Of a stretch of 64,000 nt of DNA, positions 6,414 through 39,407 are shown in pieces. The notes under the pieces were generated by a model. The model did not search any database. It worked only from the letters and a program-made list of their open reading frames with translations, and was not told where the DNA came from. The stretch comes from Bacteroides mediterraneensis. GTDB taxonomy: Bacteria > Bacteroidota > Bacteroidia > Bacteroidales > Bacteroidaceae. Position numbers and translations under genes: made by a program. The stretch covers positions 62,001 to 126,000 of the forward strand of contig NZ_JACJKA010000005.1 in assembly GCF_016900355.1 (NCBI RefSeq), written 5' to 3'. The first letter of the stretch is position 1. Every line of letters starts with the position of its first letter.

Positions 6414-8201
6414 ATGACAAAATTCTATTATCGCATTCTTCCGTTCAGTCAGCGGTTGTTCTTTTCTGTCATCTTCCTGTTCTTGGCCTATGCGGTATGT
6501 TTCATGCTCTTCCAATACAAACGCGAAAAAGCCTACAAAATAGAACTGCTGAACACCCAATTACAGAACTACAACAACCAGTTGTGTGACTTTATAGGCG
6601 AACATCATGGATTCAACCCCGACTCCATGCAGCGTTATGTGACCACTCACATGATGCCCAATCTGCGTGTGACGTTGATTGAACCTTCCGGTAAAGTTAT
6701 CTATGACAATACCAACCCACATTGGGATAAATTTGCCAATCATTCTTCCCGCAAAGAAGTACAAGATGCCCTGATGTATGGAAGCGGCTATTCTATCAGC
6801 CGACAGTCAGAAAGCATTCAAGGGGAAGAATATTTTTATTCGACACGTTATTTCCCCCCCTATCGTCTCATCATACGGTCAGCCCTTCCCTATAACCTGA
6901 GTTTGGCAGAACATCTGCAAGCAGATTCCGGCTACCTGTGGTTTGCCCTTATCATCTGCCTGGTGCTGATTTTTATCTTCTACCGTTTCACCCGGAAGTT
7001 AGGAAAGTCCATCACCAAACTGCAGCAGTTTGCCATGAAGGCCGACCGCAATGAGCCGATTGACATGGATATCCTGCAAACTTTCCCTAAAAACGAACTG
7101 GGAGAGATTTCACAGCACATCATCAAGATATACAAACGTCTGCACCGTGCCAAAGAAGCGCTTTACATTGAACGTGAGAAGCTGATTTCTCACCTCCAGA
7201 CCTCCCATGAAGGACTCGGGGTATTCACCAAGGAGCGGAAGGAGATTCTGGTCAATAACCTGTTCACACAATACATCAACAATATCTCAGACCGGAACCT
7301 TCGTTCTACCAATGAAATCTTCGACATCCCGGAACTGAAACCTATCACAGAATTTCTGAACCGGAACGAAGGCAACCCTAACAAAGAAGAGAAACGCTAT
7401 TCCTTGCATATCAACAAGAATGCGCGCAGCTTCACGCTCGAATGTATCATCTTTCAAGATATGTCGTTCGAAATATCCATCATCGACGTCACTCAGGAAG
7501 AAGAACAGGCGCGTTTGAAACGCCAGCTGACCCAGAACATCGCCCATGAACTGAAAACACCCGTCAGCAGTATTCAAGGATATCTGGAAACCATCATCAA
7601 CAATCCAAATATTCCACAAGAGAATGTCCGCACCTTCCTGGAAAGAAGCTATGCGCAAAGCAACCGACTGACCTTCCTGTTACGGGATATTTCCGTACTG
7701 ACCCGCATGGACGAAGCACCGGAAATGGTAGAAAAAGAATCGGTCAACCTCAGCAAGATTGTAGAAAACATATTGAATGAGGTGACTTTGGGACTAGAAG
7801 AGAAACACATCACCGTGGTCAACAAACTTCCGCCAAACATCACCCTGACCGGAAGCAGTTCCTTACTTTATTCCATCTTCCGAAACCTGATTGACAATGC
7901 AATCGCCTACGCAGGAACGAACATACAAATCACAATCAAGTGTTTCCGCGAAGACGAGAAATTCTATTACTTCAGCTTCTCGGATACAGGTGTTGGTGTA
8001 CCCGAAGAGCACCTGAACCGCTTGTTCGAACGCTTCTACCGAGTGGACAAAGGACGGTCGCGGAAATTAGGAGGCACAGGATTGGGACTGGCCATCGTCA
8101 AGAATGCCGTTCTTTTCCACGGAGGCACCATCTTTGCCAAGAACATGCCGACCGGCGGACTGGAATTTGTCTTCACGTTACAGAAAGCAAAACAAGGATA
8201 A
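6414..8201 (+). CDS. Sensor histidine kinase (PhoR-like)
   Basis: Membrane sensor kinase of 595 residues, partner of the upstream regulator. TM1 is about residues 9-28. A periplasmic sensor region of about 145 residues follows, then TM2 at about 175-195 (WFALIICLVLIFIFY). A HAMP/linker and PAS-like segment lead to the dimerisation helix with phospho-acceptor His378 in NIAHELKTP. The ATP-binding domain shows the N box (NLIDNAIAYAG), G1 (DTGVGVP), F box (FERFYRVD) and G2 (GGTGLGLAIVK). All kinase motifs are intact. It ends facing the oppositely oriented beta-barrel gene across a repeat array. Confidence 0.93.
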   Translation: MTKFYYRILPFSQRLFFSVIFLFLAYAVCFMLFQYKREKAYKIELLNTQLQNYNNQLCDFIGEHHGFNPDSMQRYVTTHMMPNLRVTLIEPSGKVIYDNTNPHWDKFANHSSRKEVQDALMYGSGYSISRQSESIQGEEYFYSTRYFPPYRLIIRSALPYNLSLAEHLQADSGYLWFALIICLVLIFIFYRFTRKLGKSITKLQQFAMKADRNEPIDMDILQTFPKNELGEISQHIIKIYKRLHRAKEALYIEREKLISHLQTSHEGLGVFTKERKEILVNNLFTQYINNISDRNLRSTNEIFDIPELKPITEFLNRNEGNPNKEEKRYSLHINKNARSFTLECIIFQDMSFEISIIDVTQEEEQARLKRQLTQNIAHELKTPVSSIQGYLETIINNPNIPQENVRTFLERSYAQSNRLTFLLRDISVLTRMDEAPEMVEKESVNLSKIVENILNEVTLGLEEKHITVVNKLPPNITLTGSSSLLYSIFRNLIDNAIAYAGTNIQITIKCFREDEKFYYFSFSDTGVGVPEEHLNRLFERFYRVDKGRSRKLGGTGLGLAIVKNAVLFHGGTIFAKNMPTGGLEFVFTLQKAKQG

Positions 8202-8264: not shown

Positions 8265-8354
8265 CCAGTACTTCCTTGGAAGTACTGGAGTACTCCCCTG
8301 AAAGTACTACAGTACTCCTTTGACAGTACTGAAGTACTTCCTTGGCAGTACTGA
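8265..8354. repeat. Array of four 22-nt tandem units built on AGTACT (array 1)
   Basis: Four consecutive 22-nt units (8267-8288, 8289-8310, 8311-8332, 8333-8354) follow the pattern AGTACT-N8-AGTACT-N2, giving eight AGTACT palindromes in 88 nt. The N8 part is also conserved, roughly (T/C)CC(T/C)TG(G/A)N. Unit 1 with the two bases before it forms a perfect inverted repeat, CCAGTACTTCC / GGAAGTACTGG, with a 2-nt spacer. It lies between convergent genes (histidine kinase and beta-barrel receptor). Arrays at 23324 and 36450 share the period but not the word. Confidence 0.9.
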
Positions 8355-8465: not shown

Positions 8466-10772
8466 TTATAAACGATTCTTTTCACTTTGACCAGCACCCC
8501 TTCCTTTATATTTGCTCATCGTAGAGTTAAATGCATAACGTATGGTAAACTGAACAGCCTGTGAATCACTATAGTTCCATTTATCAAGTTTCATTTGAGT
8601 TCCATAGGTTATCATTGAATTACGGGCTGTTTTGAATATATCTGTGGCACTAAGCTGGAAAAACCAGTTACCAATTGTTTTGGTTACACCCAGATTTATT
8701 TGCCATGACGGTTTTAGTGTAACCACATCCATATCTCCCGATGAATGATATAGCATATCACCTGTAATGGTGAAACCTTTTCCGACAGATATACTATTGT
8801 AGAAATTGATAAACAACAATGGATTGTTCATTCGCAGTTCTGTCCCCATAAATGGTATTTTAAGGTTTTGTCCCATCAGATTAAATTGGAGACGAGGTGA
8901 CCAGATTGATATTTTAGGGGATAGAGATACCATCGCTGTATATTTTGAGATATGATCATAATTCATATAAGTCATCAGATTTACAGGTTCTCCTTCCTTA
9001 TATGCTTCCACAATCCCGACTATAGCATCTTTTACATATTGATAGCCTGCTGAAAAGAAAACCCATTTGTAAATGCCAGCCAAAGAAACATCGTGATTCA
9101 TTTCCGGTTTCAATAGAGGATTCCCTGTCTCATAGGTAAAGCGGTCATCATATTGTATATTGCTGCTTAATTGACTATACAGCGGCCGCCTTGTCTTGGC
9201 AGTATATGATAGCGTAAACTTAGCTTTTTTAATAGGGAATGTAAAGTCTATATTGGGAAACAGACGGTCATATTTTCGGCTTTGCTCTGATATCAAGAAC
9301 CCATTCTCATAGTAATCGGATATGGTATGCTCATACCTTAATCCCCCTGAAAGTTCATACACTCCTATGGGGAAAGTGGCACTTATGAAACCAGCAATAT
9401 TATGTTCCTTGATATTGTCATCTGCATCCGGCAAAAAATCATTATAGTTATCATATCGGTCAGTTCTATTTGTATAAGTGTACTCATAACCGGCCTCAAG
9501 TGTATTTTTGCCAAAGTCGTAATCCAGGACGGATTTGGAGGCAAACATTGAACTGTTGATGTGATTCAGGCTGCTTATTGTCGATTCTCCTTCCGATAAA
9601 CTGACTTCATCTATTTCCTGTTCAGCTTTATTGCGACTTGAATAATAGTCGTTATTTACAGTAAGCGTCCAATCACCATATTCACCTATGTAATACATAT
9701 TCAATATGTTCGTCGGCACATTCTTTCTTTTCCAGTAGGTATAGTAATCTATTTTATCATCAAGGGCACCATTTAATTCGATTGTTTCATGTGTGGTCCA
9801 GTCTGAATGATTATAAGGTGTACCTCGAAATTCATATTTTGCTCCCAATACATTCTTAGGGTTTATTTGCCAGTTGAGACCTAAATTGGCATTATAAGTT
9901 GTGCTGACAGGCAATATGATAATGTCAGAATTCAGCTCATACAGATTATGCCCAGTATTTATCATGGTGACATTGTTCTGCTGCTGATATCGTCTTGAAT
10001 GGTCAAAAGCAAAGGCCCCGAATATGTCAAGATTATTCTTCCTGAAATTGAGAGAAAGGTTGTCTGAATTAGACCAGGAGTGAGCAGCCCGGACGACACC
10101 TTGTATTGAGCCGCTTAATCCGTCTCCTTGTTTCTTGATTGTGCGGACTAATAACACCGATTTTACTTCCGCGCCATATTTAGCCCCCGGATTACTGATG
10201 ACTTCTACACTTGCAATATCTTTTGATGACAATCTATATAATTCGCTGTTGTCCGTCAGTTTTCTCCCATTCACATATATGATTGGTGTCCCTTTGCCAA
10301 AAACAGTAAATTTGTCATCTTCACGCATCACGCCCGGAAGTTGTCCAATCACATCCATTGCATTCCCGAGCAGGCTCAAAACAGACCCATTTACAGTTGT
10401 GATTATACCCCCTTTTGTCAAATGTTGAGAAGGTCGTTTTGCCGTTACCGTAACTTCGTCCAATAGGATATTGTCTGAAACAAGTACGAGTGTTCCAATA
10501 TCATTTTTCTCATCCAGCGTTTTTATAATTGTCTTGTATCCGAGAGCGGAAATTTGTAGAAACTTTGCTTTTGCATAATCGGTAAAAAAATCAAATTTAC
10601 CACTTGCGTCTGTTACTGTTCCTGCGATATATACGGAATCAGCACCCATCAAAATAACATTTGCAAACTCTACGGGGTTTTGATTCTCGTCACATACCGC
10701 ACCTTTGATTTGCGCCTTGACTGTAAATGGCACAATCATTAAAACAAAAATAAATAAAAGATTTCTTTTCAT
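8466..10772 (-). CDS. Outer-membrane beta-barrel protein of the TonB-receptor type
   Basis: A 768-residue outer-membrane protein. Signal peptide MKRNLLFIFVLMIVPFTVKA, a carboxypeptidase-regulatory-like beta-sandwich (about 22-105, IKGAVCDENQNPVEFANV), a plug-like domain (about 115-215, with VIGQLPGVMREDD and VYVNGRKL-like IIYVNGRKL), then a long barrel ending KYKGRGAGQSEKNRL, the usual tail of the outer membrane beta-barrel (OMP_b-brl_3) family. Start: ATG 10772 is preferred over 10784, because a -7 box at 10800-10807 would leave only about 8 nt of leader for the upstream ATG. The gene is visibly AT-richer than the trp and two-component genes. The upstream neighbour is a TPR regulator. The substrate is unknown. 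Confidence 0.85.
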   Translation of the reverse strand: MKRNLLFIFVLMIVPFTVKAQIKGAVCDENQNPVEFANVILMGADSVYIAGTVTDASGKFDFFTDYAKAKFLQISALGYKTIIKTLDEKNDIGTLVLVSDNILLDEVTVTAKRPSQHLTKGGIITTVNGSVLSLLGNAMDVIGQLPGVMREDDKFTVFGKGTPIIYVNGRKLTDNSELYRLSSKDIASVEVISNPGAKYGAEVKSVLLVRTIKKQGDGLSGSIQGVVRAAHSWSNSDNLSLNFRKNNLDIFGAFAFDHSRRYQQQNNVTMINTGHNLYELNSDIIILPVSTTYNANLGLNWQINPKNVLGAKYEFRGTPYNHSDWTTHETIELNGALDDKIDYYTYWKRKNVPTNILNMYYIGEYGDWTLTVNNDYYSSRNKAEQEIDEVSLSEGESTISSLNHINSSMFASKSVLDYDFGKNTLEAGYEYTYTNRTDRYDNYNDFLPDADDNIKEHNIAGFISATFPIGVYELSGGLRYEHTISDYYENGFLISEQSRKYDRLFPNIDFTFPIKKAKFTLSYTAKTRRPLYSQLSSNIQYDDRFTYETGNPLLKPEMNHDVSLAGIYKWVFFSAGYQYVKDAIVGIVEAYKEGEPVNLMTYMNYDHISKYTAMVSLSPKISIWSPRLQFNLMGQNLKIPFMGTELRMNNPLLFINFYNSISVGKGFTITGDMLYHSSGDMDVVTLKPSWQINLGVTKTIGNWFFQLSATDIFKTARNSMITYGTQMKLDKWNYSDSQAVQFTIRYAFNSTMSKYKGRGAGQSEKNRL

Positions 10773-10799
10773 ACTTACTTGCATTTTTATGACTCAATG

Positions 10800-21661: not shown

Positions 21662-23236
21662 GTGACAAGCGAATTAGTAGTAGACGTACAGCCCAAGGAA
21701 ATTTCTATCGCCCTCATGGAAGACAAGAAGCTGGTAGAGTTCCAGAAAGAAGAACGCAACCTGTCGTTCTCGGTCGGCAACATGTACGTAGGAAAAGTCC
21801 GGAAACTCATGCCCGGCCTCAACGCCTGTTTCGTAGATGTAGGCTTTGAGAAAGACGCTTTTCTCCACTATTTAGACTTGGGACCACAATTTCATTCTTA
21901 CCAGAAGTACCTCAAGCAAGTCATCAGTGACCGGAAAAAACTCTATCCCATGTCGAAAGCTTCCATGCTTCCCGACATTGAAAAAGACGGAACCATTTCC
22001 AGTGTACTCCAGCAGGGACAGGAGGTCATCGTGCAGATTGTCAAGGAACCGATTTCGACCAAAGGCCCACGACTGACCTGTGAACTGTCGTTCGCCGGAC
22101 GCTATCTGGTATTGATTCCTTTCAATGACAAGGTATCCGTCTCACAAAAAATTAAATCCAGCGAGGAAAGAGCTCGCCTCAAACAGCTGCTCCAGAGCAT
22201 CAAGCCCAAGAACTTCGGAGTGATTGTACGTACCGTAGCCGAAGGCAAACGAGTAGCAGAGCTGGATGCGGAACTGAAAGTCTTGCTGAAACATTGGGAA
22301 GATACCATCACAAAAGTACAGAAGGCCACCAAACTGCCCTCATTGGTTTATGAGGAGACAAGCCGTACCGTAGCCATGCTGCGCGACTTGTTCAACCCGT
22401 CGTACGAAAACATTTACGTCAACGACGAAACCGTTTATAACGAAGTAAAAGATTATGTGGCGCTCATTGCCCCTGAACGTACAGGCATCGTGAAGCGCTA
22501 CACCGGCCAGCTTCCTATTTTCGATAATTTCGGAATCACCAAACAAATCAAGTCCTCCTTTGGAAAAACCGTTTCCTACAAGAGCGGGGCTTATCTGATT
22601 ATCGAACACACGGAAGCGCTCCATGTGGTGGACGTGAACAGTGGAAACCGCTCCAAATCAACCAACGGACAAGAAGCAAACGCACTCGACGTGAATCTGG
22701 GCGCAGCCGATGAGTTGGCACGCCAGCTCCGGTTGAGAGATATGGGCGGAATCATTGTGGTAGACTTCATCGATATGAATCTGGCAGAAAACCGGCAGAA
22801 ACTTTATGAACGCATGTGTCAGAACATGCAGAAAGACCGGGCCAAACACAACATCCTGCCTCTGAGCAAGTTTGGACTGATGCAGATCACGCGCCAGCGT
22901 GTACGTCCGGCAATGGATGTCACTACCGATGAAGACTGCCCTGTTTGTTTCGGAAAGGGGAAAATCAAACCTTCCATCCTGTTCACCGATACATTGGAAA
23001 GTAAGATAGACTATTTGGTCAACAAGCTGAAAGTGAAGAAATTCACGCTGCACATCCATCCTTATGTGGCTGCCTACGTAAACCAAGGACTCATGTCCTT
23101 GAAACGAAAATGGCAGATGAAGTATGGATTCGGCATCAAAGTCATTCCGAACCAGAACCTGGCATTCCTGCAATATAAATTCTTCGATGCACACAACCAG
23201 GAACTGGACATGAAGGAAGAATTCGAAATCAAATAA
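21662..23236 (+). CDS. rng: Ribonuclease E/G family endoribonuclease
   Basis: RNase G-type enzyme of 524 residues for mRNA and rRNA processing. GTG start at 21662. An S1-like domain (about 35-115, VGNMYVGKVRKLMPGLNACFVDVG in pieces) is followed by the RNase H-like/DNase I-like catalytic part with metal-binding Asp residues in VVDVNSG and IIVVDFIDM, and the zinc-link CPVCFGKGK. It lacks the long degradosome tail of RNase E. Ends at a strong terminator. Confidence 0.93.
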   Translation: MTSELVVDVQPKEISIALMEDKKLVEFQKEERNLSFSVGNMYVGKVRKLMPGLNACFVDVGFEKDAFLHYLDLGPQFHSYQKYLKQVISDRKKLYPMSKASMLPDIEKDGTISSVLQQGQEVIVQIVKEPISTKGPRLTCELSFAGRYLVLIPFNDKVSVSQKIKSSEERARLKQLLQSIKPKNFGVIVRTVAEGKRVAELDAELKVLLKHWEDTITKVQKATKLPSLVYEETSRTVAMLRDLFNPSYENIYVNDETVYNEVKDYVALIAPERTGIVKRYTGQLPIFDNFGITKQIKSSFGKTVSYKSGAYLIIEHTEALHVVDVNSGNRSKSTNGQEANALDVNLGAADELARQLRLRDMGGIIVVDFIDMNLAENRQKLYERMCQNMQKDRAKHNILPLSKFGLMQITRQRVRPAMDVTTDEDCPVCFGKGKIKPSILFTDTLESKIDYLVNKLKVKKFTLHIHPYVAAYVNQGLMSLKRKWQMKYGFGIKVIPNQNLAFLQYKFFDAHNQELDMKEEFEIK

Positions 23237-23323: not shown

Positions 23324-23412
23324 ACCTCGTCACGACCGTGTCAAGACCTCATCACGTTCGTGTCGACCTCTCGTCACGTTCATGCTGAGCTCTCCGCACG
23401 TTCGTGTCGAGG
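23324..23412. repeat. Array of four 20-22-nt units with a CACG-N2-CGTG core (array 2)
   Basis: Units at 23324-23345, 23346-23365, 23366-23387 and 23388-23409 each run ACCTC (or AGCTC), 2-4 nt, then the dyad CACGNNCRTG and a TG/TCG tail. The first and last units are inverted relative to each other at their ends: ACCTCGTCACGA against the complement ACCTCGACACGA. Located between the rng terminator and the promoter of the C69 peptidase. Nothing else is seen in the 333-nt gap. Confidence 0.85.
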
Positions 23413-34135: not shown

Positions 34136-36439
34136 ATGCACATAAAAAAATACATACAGCATTTCGGGATACTCTCGGCCATCTTGCTCACAACAGCCTG
34201 CAATAACGATTTTATCCCTAAAGATGAAAATACCCCGAATGAAGACAACGGAAGTATCCCTGTACGGACAGTCAGTGCCCGCGTCAAGGCCTTCCAGATA
34301 GAAGGAGAAGATGCCTCTCTCTCTGGAGAAAACAGCGTCACAGACCTGCAAGCCTGTCTGTTTGAAGAAGGAGTATTGACCCATATCTATACGCAACTAT
34401 CTCAAAAGGATGACCAATATACCCTTCAGACCGACAAAGAAGCCGGCCACTTGTACTTCGTGGGTAACACAGCGAGCCAGCTTGACCTGCAAGCCCTCAA
34501 GGAACAAGGCCTGACAGAAGAAGAATGGCTGAAAACCACTTTAGAATACGCCAAGAAAGATGCACAAGCTTCGGAATTCTTCTCCGGTATGCTGGATTTG
34601 GGCAAGAATAATGAGAGTACGCTGCACACGGATCTGGAAAGAGGATCGGCCCGGTTTGACTTGTCTTTACCGGCCAACAGTTCCCTCCAGGTAAAAGGAA
34701 TCACATTCACCCAAATCGCACAACGCACATTCCTGTTCCCGCAGAATCCGGTAGCAAGTCCGGAAAATACGGAACGGACAGATAAGCGCGTTGATTTTTC
34801 AGAGACGCTGAATGCCAGCACCCAAGGAGTGGCTTACCTGTACGAACAGACTGGTACCGATGTGAAAGCCCAGGTTAATGTCGTAAAGAAAGGAAAAGAA
34901 ACTACCGTAGAAAGCAGCCTGCCTTCCACCTTGAAGCGCAACACAGTCTATACCTTGAGCCTCAGCGAAGACTCTGTCAGCGGAAGCGTGAAGCTCCAAG
35001 TCATTGAATGGGAAAATGGAGGCGATCACAACCTCTCTTCCGAAGCTGGGGCCTTGAAAGTAGATACTCAAGCTTCTACCCTTCCAGAAAATGTGACAGT
35101 AAACGACGAAAAGAACCGGATTGTATTGCCTTATACGGCTACCGAACTGACACTGGCCATTGACTGTGACGACCAGCTGGAGTTCATCCCAGACCCGATG
35201 CCGCTGACCGTACAGACACTGGGAGGCAGCAGCGCAGAAACCATGGAAAAGAACCTGTTCCGTATACAAAAAGACAGATGGCGCTTAGGGGTTCCCGGAG
35301 AAGAAATCAAGCTGCGCTACCACCGGAAGGGATTGCAACAAACTTACCCGGACGACTTCCTGACCGTGGTTCTGACGGAGAACCCGACCCGTATGGAAGG
35401 ATTGCTCAATTACAATGACAGCTACGAGTTCCACTTTGACCGCTATATCGACAATGAACTGGGGGTACTGACCTTGCCGGAGTCTAAAAAACTAACTGTA
35501 GAGTATAAGAATGGAGAAGGCCACTGGATTAAACTGGCGGCACGAGAAAACAATTCCCACTCCTTCCGCATCTTGGGAGGATGGAAACCGAATGACCCCA
35601 CAGCCAACGGACGTGTACAGAAAGCCACACTGGTAATCTGCAATAACGACGGCACGGAACGTGAAGAATATACGGTGAGCCGTCGCAACTGGGGACTCCC
35701 GGTGACGTACCTCAACGGAGTATGGTGGTGCAAGTACAATGCCATGGGCGATTCAAAGGACTTCAACGACCAGATACTTTCATCAAACGACCCGGCTGCG
35801 AAAGCAGGAAAAACAGTTTTCGATTATCTGCGTGACTGCACTCCGGAAGAATTCTTCAAACTCTGGAAATGGCAATATCAGGGAAAAACCACCCAGGGTA
35901 TGCAGGTGATAGATGACAACGGAGTAGCCAAGCTGGAAGGATACAGCACGTCAAGCGTCCATATCAACAAGCTGGAACCTACAGCCATGGCTCCCGACGG
36001 GTACGAACTACCTTCGATGGAAAACTTCGAACGTGTACTGAACTCCACCAGCGGTACCATCTGGCTGATGTGGGACGGAAGCCATACTACTGCATGGAAC
36101 GGAAATACCACCATCCAGCGCCGTCAACGCCGACGGAACGATGTAACGGTCGGTTCCGTCGAAATGACCGACCTGATTTATATCCAGATGTACAACCAGG
36201 CAGAACAGCAATACGAACCGCTCGTGTGGTACGGATCAGGAGCACAATGGAACGACAGCGGCATCAAACACGGACATTACAATGCCATGCTGTGGGCCAC
36301 GTATTCTCCCGACAACGGACAAGGCTGGTATTATGTCGGTACGATGGGCGGCCTTTACCCGAGCAAGAACGGAGCCGGTTCCAACGATTCCCGCCTTCTG
36401 CGGTTCAAAAAATCGGACGTGGAATATATCTATGAGTGA
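34136..36439 (+). CDS. Fimbrillin-like surface lipoprotein B
   Basis: A 767-residue lipoprotein (lipobox LLTTAC). Same plan as lipoprotein A: a fimbrillin-like N-terminal region with AGHLYFVGNTASQ, DLERGSARFDLSLP and RNTVYTLSL...VIEWENG; then ILGGWKPNDP, NWGLPVTYLNGVWWCKYN, NDQIL, MAPDGYELP and the same VEYIYE end. The last 130 residues (TIWLMWDGSHTTAWNG to GGLYPSKNG) differ from lipoprotein A, as expected of a variable binding face. Ends 10 nt before repeat array 3, which forms its terminator. Confidence 0.7.
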   Translation: MHIKKYIQHFGILSAILLTTACNNDFIPKDENTPNEDNGSIPVRTVSARVKAFQIEGEDASLSGENSVTDLQACLFEEGVLTHIYTQLSQKDDQYTLQTDKEAGHLYFVGNTASQLDLQALKEQGLTEEEWLKTTLEYAKKDAQASEFFSGMLDLGKNNESTLHTDLERGSARFDLSLPANSSLQVKGITFTQIAQRTFLFPQNPVASPENTERTDKRVDFSETLNASTQGVAYLYEQTGTDVKAQVNVVKKGKETTVESSLPSTLKRNTVYTLSLSEDSVSGSVKLQVIEWENGGDHNLSSEAGALKVDTQASTLPENVTVNDEKNRIVLPYTATELTLAIDCDDQLEFIPDPMPLTVQTLGGSSAETMEKNLFRIQKDRWRLGVPGEEIKLRYHRKGLQQTYPDDFLTVVLTENPTRMEGLLNYNDSYEFHFDRYIDNELGVLTLPESKKLTVEYKNGEGHWIKLAARENNSHSFRILGGWKPNDPTANGRVQKATLVICNNDGTEREEYTVSRRNWGLPVTYLNGVWWCKYNAMGDSKDFNDQILSSNDPAAKAGKTVFDYLRDCTPEEFFKLWKWQYQGKTTQGMQVIDDNGVAKLEGYSTSSVHINKLEPTAMAPDGYELPSMENFERVLNSTSGTIWLMWDGSHTTAWNGNTTIQRRQRRRNDVTVGSVEMTDLIYIQMYNQAEQQYEPLVWYGSGAQWNDSGIKHGHYNAMLWATYSPDNGQGWYYVGTMGGLYPSKNGAGSNDSRLLRFKKSDVEYIYE

Positions 36440-36449
36440 CTATGAATAA

Positions 36450-36567
36450 CGTTCCCAAAAACGTCTTTGCGTTTGGATGAAAACGTAAGGACGTTTTACT
36501 TGAAACGCAAGTGCGTTTGGACAAAAACTCTTTGACGTTTGACTCCAAACGCACTTGCGTTTTTTTA
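36450..36567 (+). repeat. Array of five ~22-nt units built on CGTTT...AAACG (array 3), ending as a terminator
   Basis: Units at 36450-36469 (20 nt), 36470-36491, 36492-36513, 36514-36535 and 36536-36557 start CGTT and hold an internal complement AAACG or AAACT near position 12-16; a sixth unit begins at 36558. AAACGCAAGTGCGTTTGG (36503-36520) is exactly complementary to CCAAACGCACTTGCGTTT (36545-36562), and a T-run follows, so the 3' half is an 18-bp terminator stem for the lipoprotein genes. Confidence 0.88.
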
Positions 36568-36680
36568 CCCCCTTCCCAACGCCTCCATTTTACCTTTCCA
36601 CACGACACATTCCACCTGTTCCCGCACAATGAGGAATGAACTTTTCGGATGAATCGCCCCTAAAATCCAAGGAGTTTTAT

Positions 36681-36688
36681 TATTTTTG
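36681..36688 (+). promoter_or_regulatory. Probable -7 element of valS
   Basis: TATTTTTG matches TAnnTTTG. It lies downstream of the in-frame ATG at 36636 and 41 nt upstream of ATG 36729, which rules out the earlier start. Confidence 0.65.
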
Positions 36689-36728
36689 CAGCCGATTATA
36701 CGATAAACATAAAAAGACTATTATAACC

Positions 36729-39407
36729 ATGGAATTAGCAAGTAAGTACAATCCCGCTGACGTGGAGGGAAAATGGTACCAATACTGGTTGGACCACAAA
36801 CTTTTCAGTTCTAAACCCGACGGACGTGAACCTTACACCATCGTCATTCCTCCTCCCAACGTGACAGGAGTACTCCACATGGGACACATGCTGAACAATA
36901 CCATCCAGGATATCCTTGTAAGACGTGCCCGCATGATGGGTAAGAATGCCTGCTGGGTACCGGGTACGGACCACGCCTCCATTGCCACGGAAGCTAAGGT
37001 AGTTAACCGTCTGGCACAACAGGGCATCAAAAAGACAGACCTTACCCGCGAAGAGTTCCTGAAACATGCATGGGCATGGACAGAAGAACACGGAGGCATC
37101 ATCCTGAAACAGCTCCGCAAACTGGGGGCATCATGCGACTGGGACCGCACAGCGTTCACCATGGACGAAACCCGCAGCAAGAGTGTCATCAAGGTATTCG
37201 TAGACCTATATAACAAAGGATTGATTTACCGCGGCGTACGTATGGTAAACTGGGACCCGAAAGCACTGACCGCCCTCTCTGACGAGGAAGTTATCTACAA
37301 AGAGGAACACAGCAAGCTGTATTACCTGCGTTATTATATTGCCGACGACGACATGAGCGGTGAGACAGGAGCCGAAGGCGAAGTGGTACACCGCGATGCA
37401 CAGGGACGCCGTTACGCCGTAGTCGCTACAACCCGTCCGGAAACCATCATGGGTGATACGGCCATGTGTATCAACCCAGAAGACCCGAAAAACCAGTGGC
37501 TGAAAGGCAAAAAGGTTATCGTGCCATTGGTAGGACGCGTCATTCCGGTCATTCAAGACAGCTACGTAGACATTGAATTCGGTACAGGATGTTTGAAAGT
37601 GACTCCGGCACACGATGTAAACGACTACATGTTAGGAGAAAAATACAACCTGCCTTCCATTGACATCTTCAACGACAACGGTACACTGAGTGAGGCTGCC
37701 GGCCTGTATGTAGGCATGGACCGCTTCGATGTACGTGCACAGATTGAAAAAGACCTGGAGGCTGCCGGACTGTTGGAAAAGGTAGAAGCTTATACCAATA
37801 AGGTAGGTTTCTCTGAACGTACCAACGTGGCCATCGAGCCGAAACTGTCCATGCAGTGGTTCCTGAAGATGCAGCACTTTGCCGACATGGCTTTGCCGCC
37901 GGTAATGAACGACGAACTGAAGTTCTATCCTGCCAAATATAAGAACACTTACCGCAACTGGCTGGAAAACATCAAGGACTGGTGTATCAGCCGTCAGCTG
38001 TGGTGGGGACACCGTATCCCGGCTTACTATCTGCCGAAAGGTGGCTTCGTGGTAGCTGAGACTCCGGAAAAGGCACTGGAACTGGCCAAGGAAAAGACGG
38101 GCGATGCCAACCTGAAACTGGAAGACCTGCGTCAGGAAGATGACTGCCTCGATACTTGGTTCTCTTCTTGGCTGTGGCCTATCTCTTTGTTCGACGGTAT
38201 CAACAACCCGGGCAACGAGGAAATCAAATACTACTACCCGACTTCCGACCTGGTAACCGGACCGGATATCATCTTCTTCTGGGTAGCACGTATGATTATG
38301 GCCGGCTACGAATACATGGGCGACATGCCGTTCCGCAACGTATACTTCACCGGTATCGTGCGTGACAAACTGGGCCGTAAGATGTCCAAGTCACTCGGTA
38401 ACTCTCCCGACCCGCTGGATCTGATTGACCGTTACGGAGCCGATGGCGTACGTATGGGAATGATGCTGGCAGCTCCTGCCGGAAACGACATTCTCTTCGA
38501 CGAAGCTCTGTGCGAACAAGGACGTAACTTCAACAACAAGATATGGAACGCCTTCCGCCTAGTAAAAGGCTGGCAGGTGGCCGACATCGAACAGCCGGAA
38601 TATGCAAAACTTGCGACTGAATGGTTCGACTCCATGCTGGCGAAGACCGCAGAAGAAGTGAACGACCTGTTTGGCAAGTACCGTCTGAGCGAGGCCCTGA
38701 TGGCTGTCTATAAATTGTTCTGGGATGAATTCTCCAGCTGGTACCTGGAAATGGTGAAACCGGCTTATGGACAGCCTATCGACAAGGTAACTTATGAAAA
38801 GACTCTGGCCTTCTTTGAAACCTTGCTGAAACTGTTGCATCCGTTCATGCCGTTCATCACGGAGGAATTGTGGCAACACATTTACGACCGTCAGCCGGGC
38901 GAAAGCATCATGACGCAGACCCTCGTAAAAGACATGCCGTACAATGAAACCCTGATTACTCGCTTTGAAGCCGTGAAGGAGGTCATCAGCGGTATCCGTA
39001 CCATCCGCTTGCAGAAGAACATCGCACAGAAAGAAGTTCTGACACTGGAAGTCATCGGAGAAAATCCGGTAGCTGAGTTCACTTCTGTCATTGCCAAACT
39101 CTGCAACCTGTCGGAAATCAAACAGGTAGCTACTAAGGCAGATGGAGCAGCCGCCTTCATGGTGGGCACTACCGAATATGCGGTACCTCTGGGAAACCTG
39201 ATTAATGTGGAAGAAGAGCTGAAGAAGCTGGAAGCTGACCTGAAATACCAGGAAGGATTCCTGCAGAGCGTACTGAAGAAGCTGAGCAACGAGAAGTTTG
39301 TCAGCAAGGCTCCGGCTAACGTCATTGAAATGGAACGCAAGAAACAGGCTGACGCTGAAACTAAGATTGCAGCTTTGAAAGAAAGCATTGCTGCATTGAA
39401 ACGCTAA
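36729..39407 (+). CDS. valS: Valyl-tRNA synthetase
   Basis: Class I aminoacyl-tRNA synthetase of 892 residues that charges tRNA-Val. Start [17 protein letters not shown] fits the family; the frame opens 31 codons earlier, but that segment spans the promoter. HIGH box is HMGH (50-53, in [14 protein letters not shown]), KMSKS is at 551-555, and the editing domain includes [13 protein letters not shown] and [18 protein letters not shown]-terminal coiled coil (last 70 residues) is typical of ValRS. Transcribed alone, closed by a terminator. Confidence 0.96.

Follow-up and report, generated by a model that had tools for sequence, protein, structure and literature searches.

Dispersed intergenic arrays of 22-bp dyad units in Bacteroides mediterraneensis, possible duplex-DNA elements at transcription-unit boundaries

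Three intergenic arrays are located within a stretch of 64,000 nucleotides of the B. mediterraneensis genome (the whole stretch is referred to here as the window; its source assembly, G000, has 3.53 Mb in 107 contigs). As the initial annotation had observed, the arrays share a period and do not share their words: the AGTACT, CACG and AAACG families are all at 22 nt. What holds the period constant among unlike words, and do the units function in duplex DNA or as hairpins in RNA?

The three arrays and the anatomy of their units

All three of the annotated arrays exist, and each follows the 3′ end of a plus-strand gene. The distance to that end had been given as 10–87 nt; measured from the upstream stop codon to where the first 22-nt unit starts, it is 64, 88 and 19 nt for arrays 1, 2 and 3, respectively. 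The features of the window are the following.

6414..8201, + strand: histidine kinase (HisKA, HATPase_c), gene upstream of array 1
8266..8353, unstranded: array 1, AGTACT family, four 22-bp units, in a convergent gap
8267-8286, 8289-8308, 8311-8330, 8333-8352: the AGTACT-N8-AGTACT units of array 1
8466..10784, − strand: outer membrane beta-barrel family protein, convergent gene past array 1
21662..23236, + strand: ribonuclease E/G family, gene upstream of array 2
23325..23412, unstranded: array 2, CACGnnCGTG family, four 22-bp units
23325-23346, 23347-23368, 23369-23390, 23391-23412: the units of array 2
34136..36439, + strand: gene upstream of array 3, without a Pfam match, which served to locate orthologous sites
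36459..36562, unstranded: array 3, AAACG-N6-CGTTT family, five 22-bp units
36459, 36481, 36503, 36525, 36547: unit starts of array 3
36560..36566, + strand: terminator-like T-tract (7 T) on the exit side of array 3

Array 1 contains the pattern AGTACT-N8-AGTACT-N2 four times (8267-8352), with spacings of 22, 22 and 22 nt. Array 2 has TA immediately outside on the left and on the right, and is located 3′ of a separate terminator-like hairpin. Array 3 shows three near-identical words at distances of 44 and 44 nt, with the intervening units identified by eye. Arrays 1 and 2 are detected by Tandem Repeats Finder, and array 3 is missed. The tandem units of arrays 2 and 3 are real, but their length, annotated as 20–22 nt, needs to be corrected, as all the spacings are 22 nt. 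No Rfam matches at the gathering score are found within the window. A valyl-tRNA synthetase is called at 36636-39407; its called start (36636) is probably too early, and an ATG near 36730 appears better by eye.

Every unit had been described as palindromic. Dyad words are indeed present, but the units are not true palindromes: each consists of inverted half-sites, with a nearly invariant word, around an asymmetric core. The half-sites of the AAACG family are positioned every 11 bp, with alternating orientation. After orienting the 159 cores of this family, the variants AAGT (86), AAGG (29) and AAAG (27) are found, and AAAT is absent (0, versus 19 expected). These cores are present in both orientations about equally, with neighbouring cores co-oriented in 77 of 121 cases (p = 0.003).

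The spacing constraint of about two helical turns, proposed for the three arrays, holds for their families as well. The distance between neighbouring units is 22 nt in 173 of 174 pairs for three families in G000 (the remaining one is 44 nt), in 39/41 pairs for the orthologous arrays of G007, and in all the pairs of the AGTACT arrays of G082 (42/42) and G007 (15/15). This spacing is kept although the non-word positions vary. The AAACG arrays of G008 have 61 spacings at 22 nt and 8 at 21 nt. Six of the eight five-base spacers in G008 contain A/T only and the other two have one G, compared to 0 of 47 A/T-only cases among the six-base spacers between exact words. Given this A/T composition, the 21-nt steps of G008 seem to reflect a distinct second type of spacer and not random slippage. 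The eight steps are located in loci L219, L220 and L224-L228, and their T/A-rich spacers appear as though two array ends abutted.

The number of units is nearly fixed in several families, mostly at 4 to 6. In G000, 26 of the 30 AAACG arrays have 5 or 6 units, the AGTACT arrays have 3 to 5, and all 8 CACG arrays have 4 (7/8 by a stricter rule). Four units are also found in 14/14 AGTACT arrays of G082 (arrays from 14 of the 15 loci fetched), 5/5 AGTACT arrays of G007, and 20/22 AAACG arrays of G008.

Word families and the significance of the period

The initial annotation had suggested that the units are copied locally. This claim falls because every word is a dispersed family, although gain and loss of whole units does occur locally. 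A search with the DNA of array 1 finds five further places in G000, and its exact dyad pattern is present at 8 places. The words of arrays 2 and 3 are present at 8 and at least 40 places, respectively (40 of 66 first-look candidates were scored for array 3), with the array of the window included in each of the three counts. The words are found in related species as well.

The array 3 sequence is matched in 5 of 60 genomes (its own and 59 relatives), all in one genus. With up to 3 mismatches, its two-unit pattern has 264 forward matches in G000, 224 in G007, 260 in G008, 268 in G063 and 260 in G082, and the reversed control has 0 in G000 and 0 or 1 in each of the other four. G017 has 2 matches to the pattern and 2 to the reversed control. 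The AGTACT pattern, with up to 2 mismatches, is found in 17 of the 60 genus genomes, its own included. Because the reversed control also matches in 12/60, with at most 4 matches each, only the nine genomes with at least 6 matches are counted as clear; the strongest are G063 (76 forward matches) and G082 (45).

Four families in G000 have the 22-nt period (AAACG, AGTACT, CACG and CGTACG-like), and a CCACASTGTGG family has a period of 21 nt. Members of the latter are located at C22:50951-51022 and C22:348687-348764 in G000 and at several G007 sites, with ends of TCTGT...ACAGA by eye. A GGAAACGTACGTTTCC-like 22-nt family is present at C22:81470, C22:117153 and C66:519 of G000; two of these three are in divergent gaps and the third is at a sequence edge, and the family is perhaps regulatory. 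A ACATAAGTGAGT-type word, recognized by eye, forms a 22-nt array at C44:22858-22925 of G000 and another near C1:207700 of G017, one being the reverse complement of the other. In G017 and G080, units of AGTCCT-N8-AGGACT are found beside AGTACT, the word being altered symmetrically in both half-sites.

The 22-nt period is far above chance. The scan for periods of 15–60 nt and at least 2.5 copies covered 263 intergenic gaps of at least 60 bp (81,528 bp) from 680 kb of G000, omitting one 4,524-bp gap that contains a CRISPR array; besides C22, the scanned stretches are on the contig of the window or on contigs first noticed through a word match. It gives 20 merged arrays, 17 with a period of 22 nt and 3 with a period of 21 nt, and none at other periods; among the latter three, the array at C22:267505 resembles a coding repeat. 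When the sequences of these gaps are shuffled ten times with dinucleotides preserved, 1 array is found in total. The excess at about 22 nt over shuffled intergenic DNA, on which the initial annotation depended, is thereby confirmed for these gaps. Apparent intergenic arrays of 63–66 nt were considered as 3 × 22 nt and rejected, as they correspond to a CRISPR array. This CRISPR-like array (C19:6339-9194 of G000, L020) has the repeat ATTTCAATTCCATAAGGTACGATTAAAAG and a period of 63–66 nt.

Stretches of G011, G017, G002 and G008, together with 23 Bacteroidales loci, show unlike words with a similar period in other species. The intergenic arrays in this set have periods of 22 nt (8 arrays), 11 (4), 15 (3) and 21 (2), with single or paired arrays at 10, 16, 17, 20, 23 and 36 nt. 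Some of the 22-nt arrays from other species bear the AAACG word again.

Constant-size, non-coding satellites of bacteria were reportedly the subject of a 2020 article by Subirana and Messeguer in J Bacteriol. The excerpted text of Subirana and Messeguer, PMC8161180, describes bacterial satellites of 20–23 nt with constant size and variable sequence and with several families per genome. They are non-coding and their words are species-specific; the correspondence to two helical turns is remarked on, and their function is stated there to be not known, with proteins or small RNAs suggested. The arrays described here fit with these satellites. The spacings and the scan place them within 20–23 nt, they are non-coding (overlap with a called ORF is found for 1 of the 50 family arrays), G000 has several families of the same size and unlike sequence, and the words are limited to a lineage (5/60 genomes for the array 3 sequence, 9/60 clear for the AGTACT pattern). 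The terms palindrom-, hairpin and Bacteroid- are absent from the main text of PMC8161180, as excerpted. Relative to that text, the dyad words with an asymmetric core, the near-fixed unit number and ends, the placement at 3′ ends and in convergent gaps, the word change at an orthologous site, the T-tracts and the covariation test are additional here. Among the open-licence papers listed in literature searches, no title or abstract opening describes such arrays in Bacteroides or Phocaeicola.

Placement near genes and change at orthologous sites

Gene neighbours were assigned with our own coding-score gene caller. Sixty-one arrays were found, and leaving out 11 that had not been assigned to a family (7 pieces of CRISPR and 4 more) gives a set of 50, from which array 3 of the window is absent. 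Removal of 6 arrays at sequence edges and the one in an ORF leaves 43 arrays of G000 with a defined context: 22 tandem, 13 convergent and 8 divergent. The background of 205 gaps of at least 100 bp consists of 115 tandem, 27 convergent and 63 divergent gaps. Convergent gaps are enriched for arrays in this comparison, which is by gap number (p = 0.011); by length, the convergent share is 14.6 of 81.5 kb. The deficit of arrays in divergent gaps (8/43 versus 63/205) is non-significant (p = 0.14). Of the 22 tandem arrays, 18 are closer to the 3′ end of the upstream gene (p = 0.004). For G008 the contexts are 10 tandem (9 closer to the 3′ end), 4 convergent, 5 divergent and 3 at an edge, and for G082 they are 7 tandem (7/7 closer to the 3′ end), 7 convergent and 0 divergent. 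The arrays are thus preferentially located in convergent gaps and close to the 3′ ends of genes.

The main comparison of orthologous sites was between G000 and G007 (B. mediterraneensis), the colinear aligned blocks of which are 84–97% identical. Array 1 has 4 units in both genomes, with 94% identity over 89 columns without gaps. Array 2 is opposite a diverged array (71% identity), and array 3 is 98% identical with one gap. At 8 of 15 sites the array is better conserved than the remainder of its intergenic gap, and at the other 7 it is not, so strong conservation is not general. Among 21 AAACG cores at matching positions, 11 are identical, 4 are within one base and 6 are different, and the core changes are switches between the variants of the family. 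Unit numbers differ by whole units, with differences of 44 nt at C22:364135, 42 nt at the 21-nt array C22:348687, and 22 nt between species in the CGTACG-like family. At some sites the array is present in only one of the two genomes, and at C22:299166 an AAACG array of G000 is opposite another word in G007 (by eye).

The site of array 3 (site 3) was traced in relatives through the upstream gene, and the 3′ side was examined at 11 of 23 loci and at 9 further loci. The period at this site is conserved, as had been anticipated, at 21–23 nt, and the word is not always kept. Five AAACG units are common to B. mediterraneensis, P. plebeius and an uncultured Bacteroides. In one uncultured Phocaeicola, the site is occupied by a 21-nt array with another word, AATACAACTTGTATT. 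By eye, G079 has a AAATGCTTCGTCGTTT-like 22-nt array farther downstream, and G080 has a AAGATTATTAATCTT array with a period of 23 nt. No array is found directly 3′ of the gene in L146-L150, L160, L163, L194, L195, L197 and L198.

Array 3 aligns with two relatives at 82–90% identity without gaps, while their downstream DNA is not alignable (36–37%). Because the array aligns and the downstream side does not, array 3 has stayed with its upstream gene. Between these two relatives, unit 4 is one base off the reverse complement of its counterpart, a single hint of a possible inversion in place.

Duplex DNA, RNA hairpins or mobile elements

Two functions had been offered for the arrays in the window, binding of a dimeric protein and hairpin strings in 3′ UTRs. 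If they are strings of RNA hairpins, they would function as multi-hairpin bidirectional intrinsic terminators or as 3′-end protectors, in which the pairing matters and the word does not. We regard this explanation as rather doubtful. It agrees with the location at gene 3′ ends, with the retention of array 3 beside its upstream gene, and with the predicted folds of the arrays, which are very stable (−31 to −65 kcal/mol). However, covariation is not observed. Within the words, pairing equals the independent-column expectation (z of −0.7 to 0 for AAACG, from 237 distinct units of G000 and G007), where the power is low because nearly invariant columns cannot reveal covariation. Symmetric positions that vary pair as often as expected by chance or less, with no z above 0.7. 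No symmetric position thus has the excess pairing of compensatory base-pair changes in a stem, with weak power at the invariant word positions.

At the centre of the unit, pairing is found in 5 of 159 AAACG units versus 58 expected, in 14 of 89 G008 units versus 30, and in 3 of 38 CACG units versus 16. Pairing is also low at pair 9 of AAACG (39/159 versus 60) and pair 4 of AGTACT (35/107 versus 49). The deficit in the core arises because one asymmetric motif lies in either orientation; it is a sign of asymmetry and does not in itself demonstrate binding. Read on the gene strand, the tandem arrays have 30 G.T and 26 A.C mispairs, which gives no G.U preference; in the other arrays, for which the strand is arbitrary, there are 11 G.T and 36 A.C. 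Selection for long-range RNA folding is not seen in 29 arrays when loops, orientations and spacers are shuffled (mean z of +0.34 relative to loop-shuffled arrays). Moreover, RNA hairpins have no need for an exact spacing. The results on covariation, G.U pairs and folding, together with the exact spacing of two helical turns, therefore favour a duplex-DNA reading, and of the two functions offered earlier, the protein is the better fit to the spacing and the covariation.

Hairpins do fit the T-tracts of one family. On either side, the AAACG arrays are bordered by T-tracts that run outward. In G000 the mean tract is 6.0 at the exit and 4.73 at the entry of tandem arrays (n = 15 pairs, p = 0.008), 6.19 at convergent ends (n = 16) and 3.42 at internal positions (n = 262). 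The means in G008 are 5.7 for exit and 3.91 for internal positions (p = 4e-6); the difference between exit and entry (5.7 versus 4.9, n = 10) is not significant there (p = 0.22). The AAACG family probably helps to terminate transcription. T-tracts are mostly absent from the AGTACT and CACG arrays. The AGTACT arrays are without an adjoining T-run, and the CACG arrays have AT-rich flanks, with TTTTT two bases outside in two of them. A hairpin terminator is unlikely as a function common to all the families, because of this lack of T-runs in AGTACT and because array 2 and the array at C22:218514 are both located past a separate terminator-like hairpin. The AAACG arrays resemble intrinsic terminators in having a dyad and a T-tract, here at both ends, but the arrays contain several exactly spaced units and show no excess pairing.

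Tentatively, we read the arrays as duplex-DNA elements that are bound by putative word-specific proteins at the boundaries of transcription units. The element would be discrete, dispersed and intergenic. Its 22-bp units are near-fixed in number, mostly 4 to 6, and each has two inverted half-sites of the family-specific word around a short asymmetric core. One putative dimeric or oligomeric protein per word would occupy neighbouring sites separated by exactly two helical turns. The loaded proteins would form a nucleoprotein stretch at gene 3′ ends and in convergent gaps, which may act as a roadblock, terminator or insulator. The outward T-tracts of the AAACG family would assist termination. Plasmid iterons and operator arrays are short protein-binding sites repeated at about two helical turns. 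The arrays here have the same kind of site repeat, but they are chromosome-wide near gene ends, their units are dyads, and their binder is only putative. Several observations are against the protein-array reading. Several proteins would be required, as a single genome has five words or more. Divergent placements exist (8/43 in G000 and 5/19 in G008), the array is better conserved than its gap at only 8 of 15 sites, and the T-tracts at the AAACG ends, longer at the exit in G000, suggest a terminator role at the RNA level.

The arrays could instead be non-autonomous mobile or selfish palindromic elements, similar to REP/BIME or MITE, that are copied whole and are harmless, their 3′ placement reflecting tolerated insertion sites. 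This we find unlikely, even though the families are dispersed and have conserved ends and a near-fixed unit number. TA is directly outside the CACG arrays in 7/8 cases on each side, and in the AGTACT arrays of G082 a C is found before CAGTACT in 14/14 and a final G in 13/14, the same 14 arrays that all have 4 units. The presence of an array in only one of two sister species at some sites is also in agreement with mobility. In a test for descent of whole arrays, none of 200 shuffles reaches the in-register similarity between AAACG arrays, for part of which the shared T-tract ends may account. The signal is weak for CACG (4/200 shuffles as high), and there is none for AGTACT (188/200), which argues against copying of whole arrays in that family. 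Moreover, no clean empty site with a target duplication is found between G000 and G007, and array 3 is retained at one site between well separated species.

The RAYT transposase domain PF01797, the only one searched for, has 0 matches in G000, and of 14 control genomes, 5 are positive in the same search. On this basis we rejected a REP system that encodes its own RAYT. Units of REP/BIME carry a GTAG or CGTC tag at one end, outside the pairing part; the CACG word holds CGTC/GACG within its symmetric part (by eye). In the excerpts of PMC2817692 and PMC3733652, REP/BIME are short intergenic palindromic repeats with many copies in regularly spaced groups, and roles in termination and protein binding are proposed for them. 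The arrays here are similar in all of these structural aspects, but they differ from REP/BIME as described in these excerpts in their exact 22-bp period, in words that are unlike between families, and in a genome without the RAYT domain.

Neutral satellites formed in place, through slippage during replication or template switching at hairpins, could produce the whole-unit differences of 44, 42 and 22 nt and the unit that is nearly the reverse complement of its counterpart, and for 7 of 15 arrays conservation does not exceed that of the flanks. This origin is very improbable, being largely refuted by the same word at 8 to at least 40 distant places, and other periods are not found in the scanned gaps and the copy number is near-fixed.

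Constant-size, variable-sequence satellites have been reported from many bacterial groups without a function. In this genus there are dense, near-fixed families, sites that are shared and swapped between species, and tests that separate a role in the duplex from one in RNA. If the arrays are boundary elements, the view of transcription ends and gene insulation in common gut bacteria would change. It is conceivable, if doubtful, that the Bacteroidales have a family of related putative DNA-binding proteins, each with its own word, that would act as terminators or roadblock insulators on boundary arrays of 4–6 sites. Protein and words would co-evolve and take each other's place at a given site, while the 22-bp dyad architecture and the near-fixed number of units would be kept. 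If such a word-specific protein family exists, it would provide a functional explanation for the constant-size, variable-sequence satellites of bacteria.
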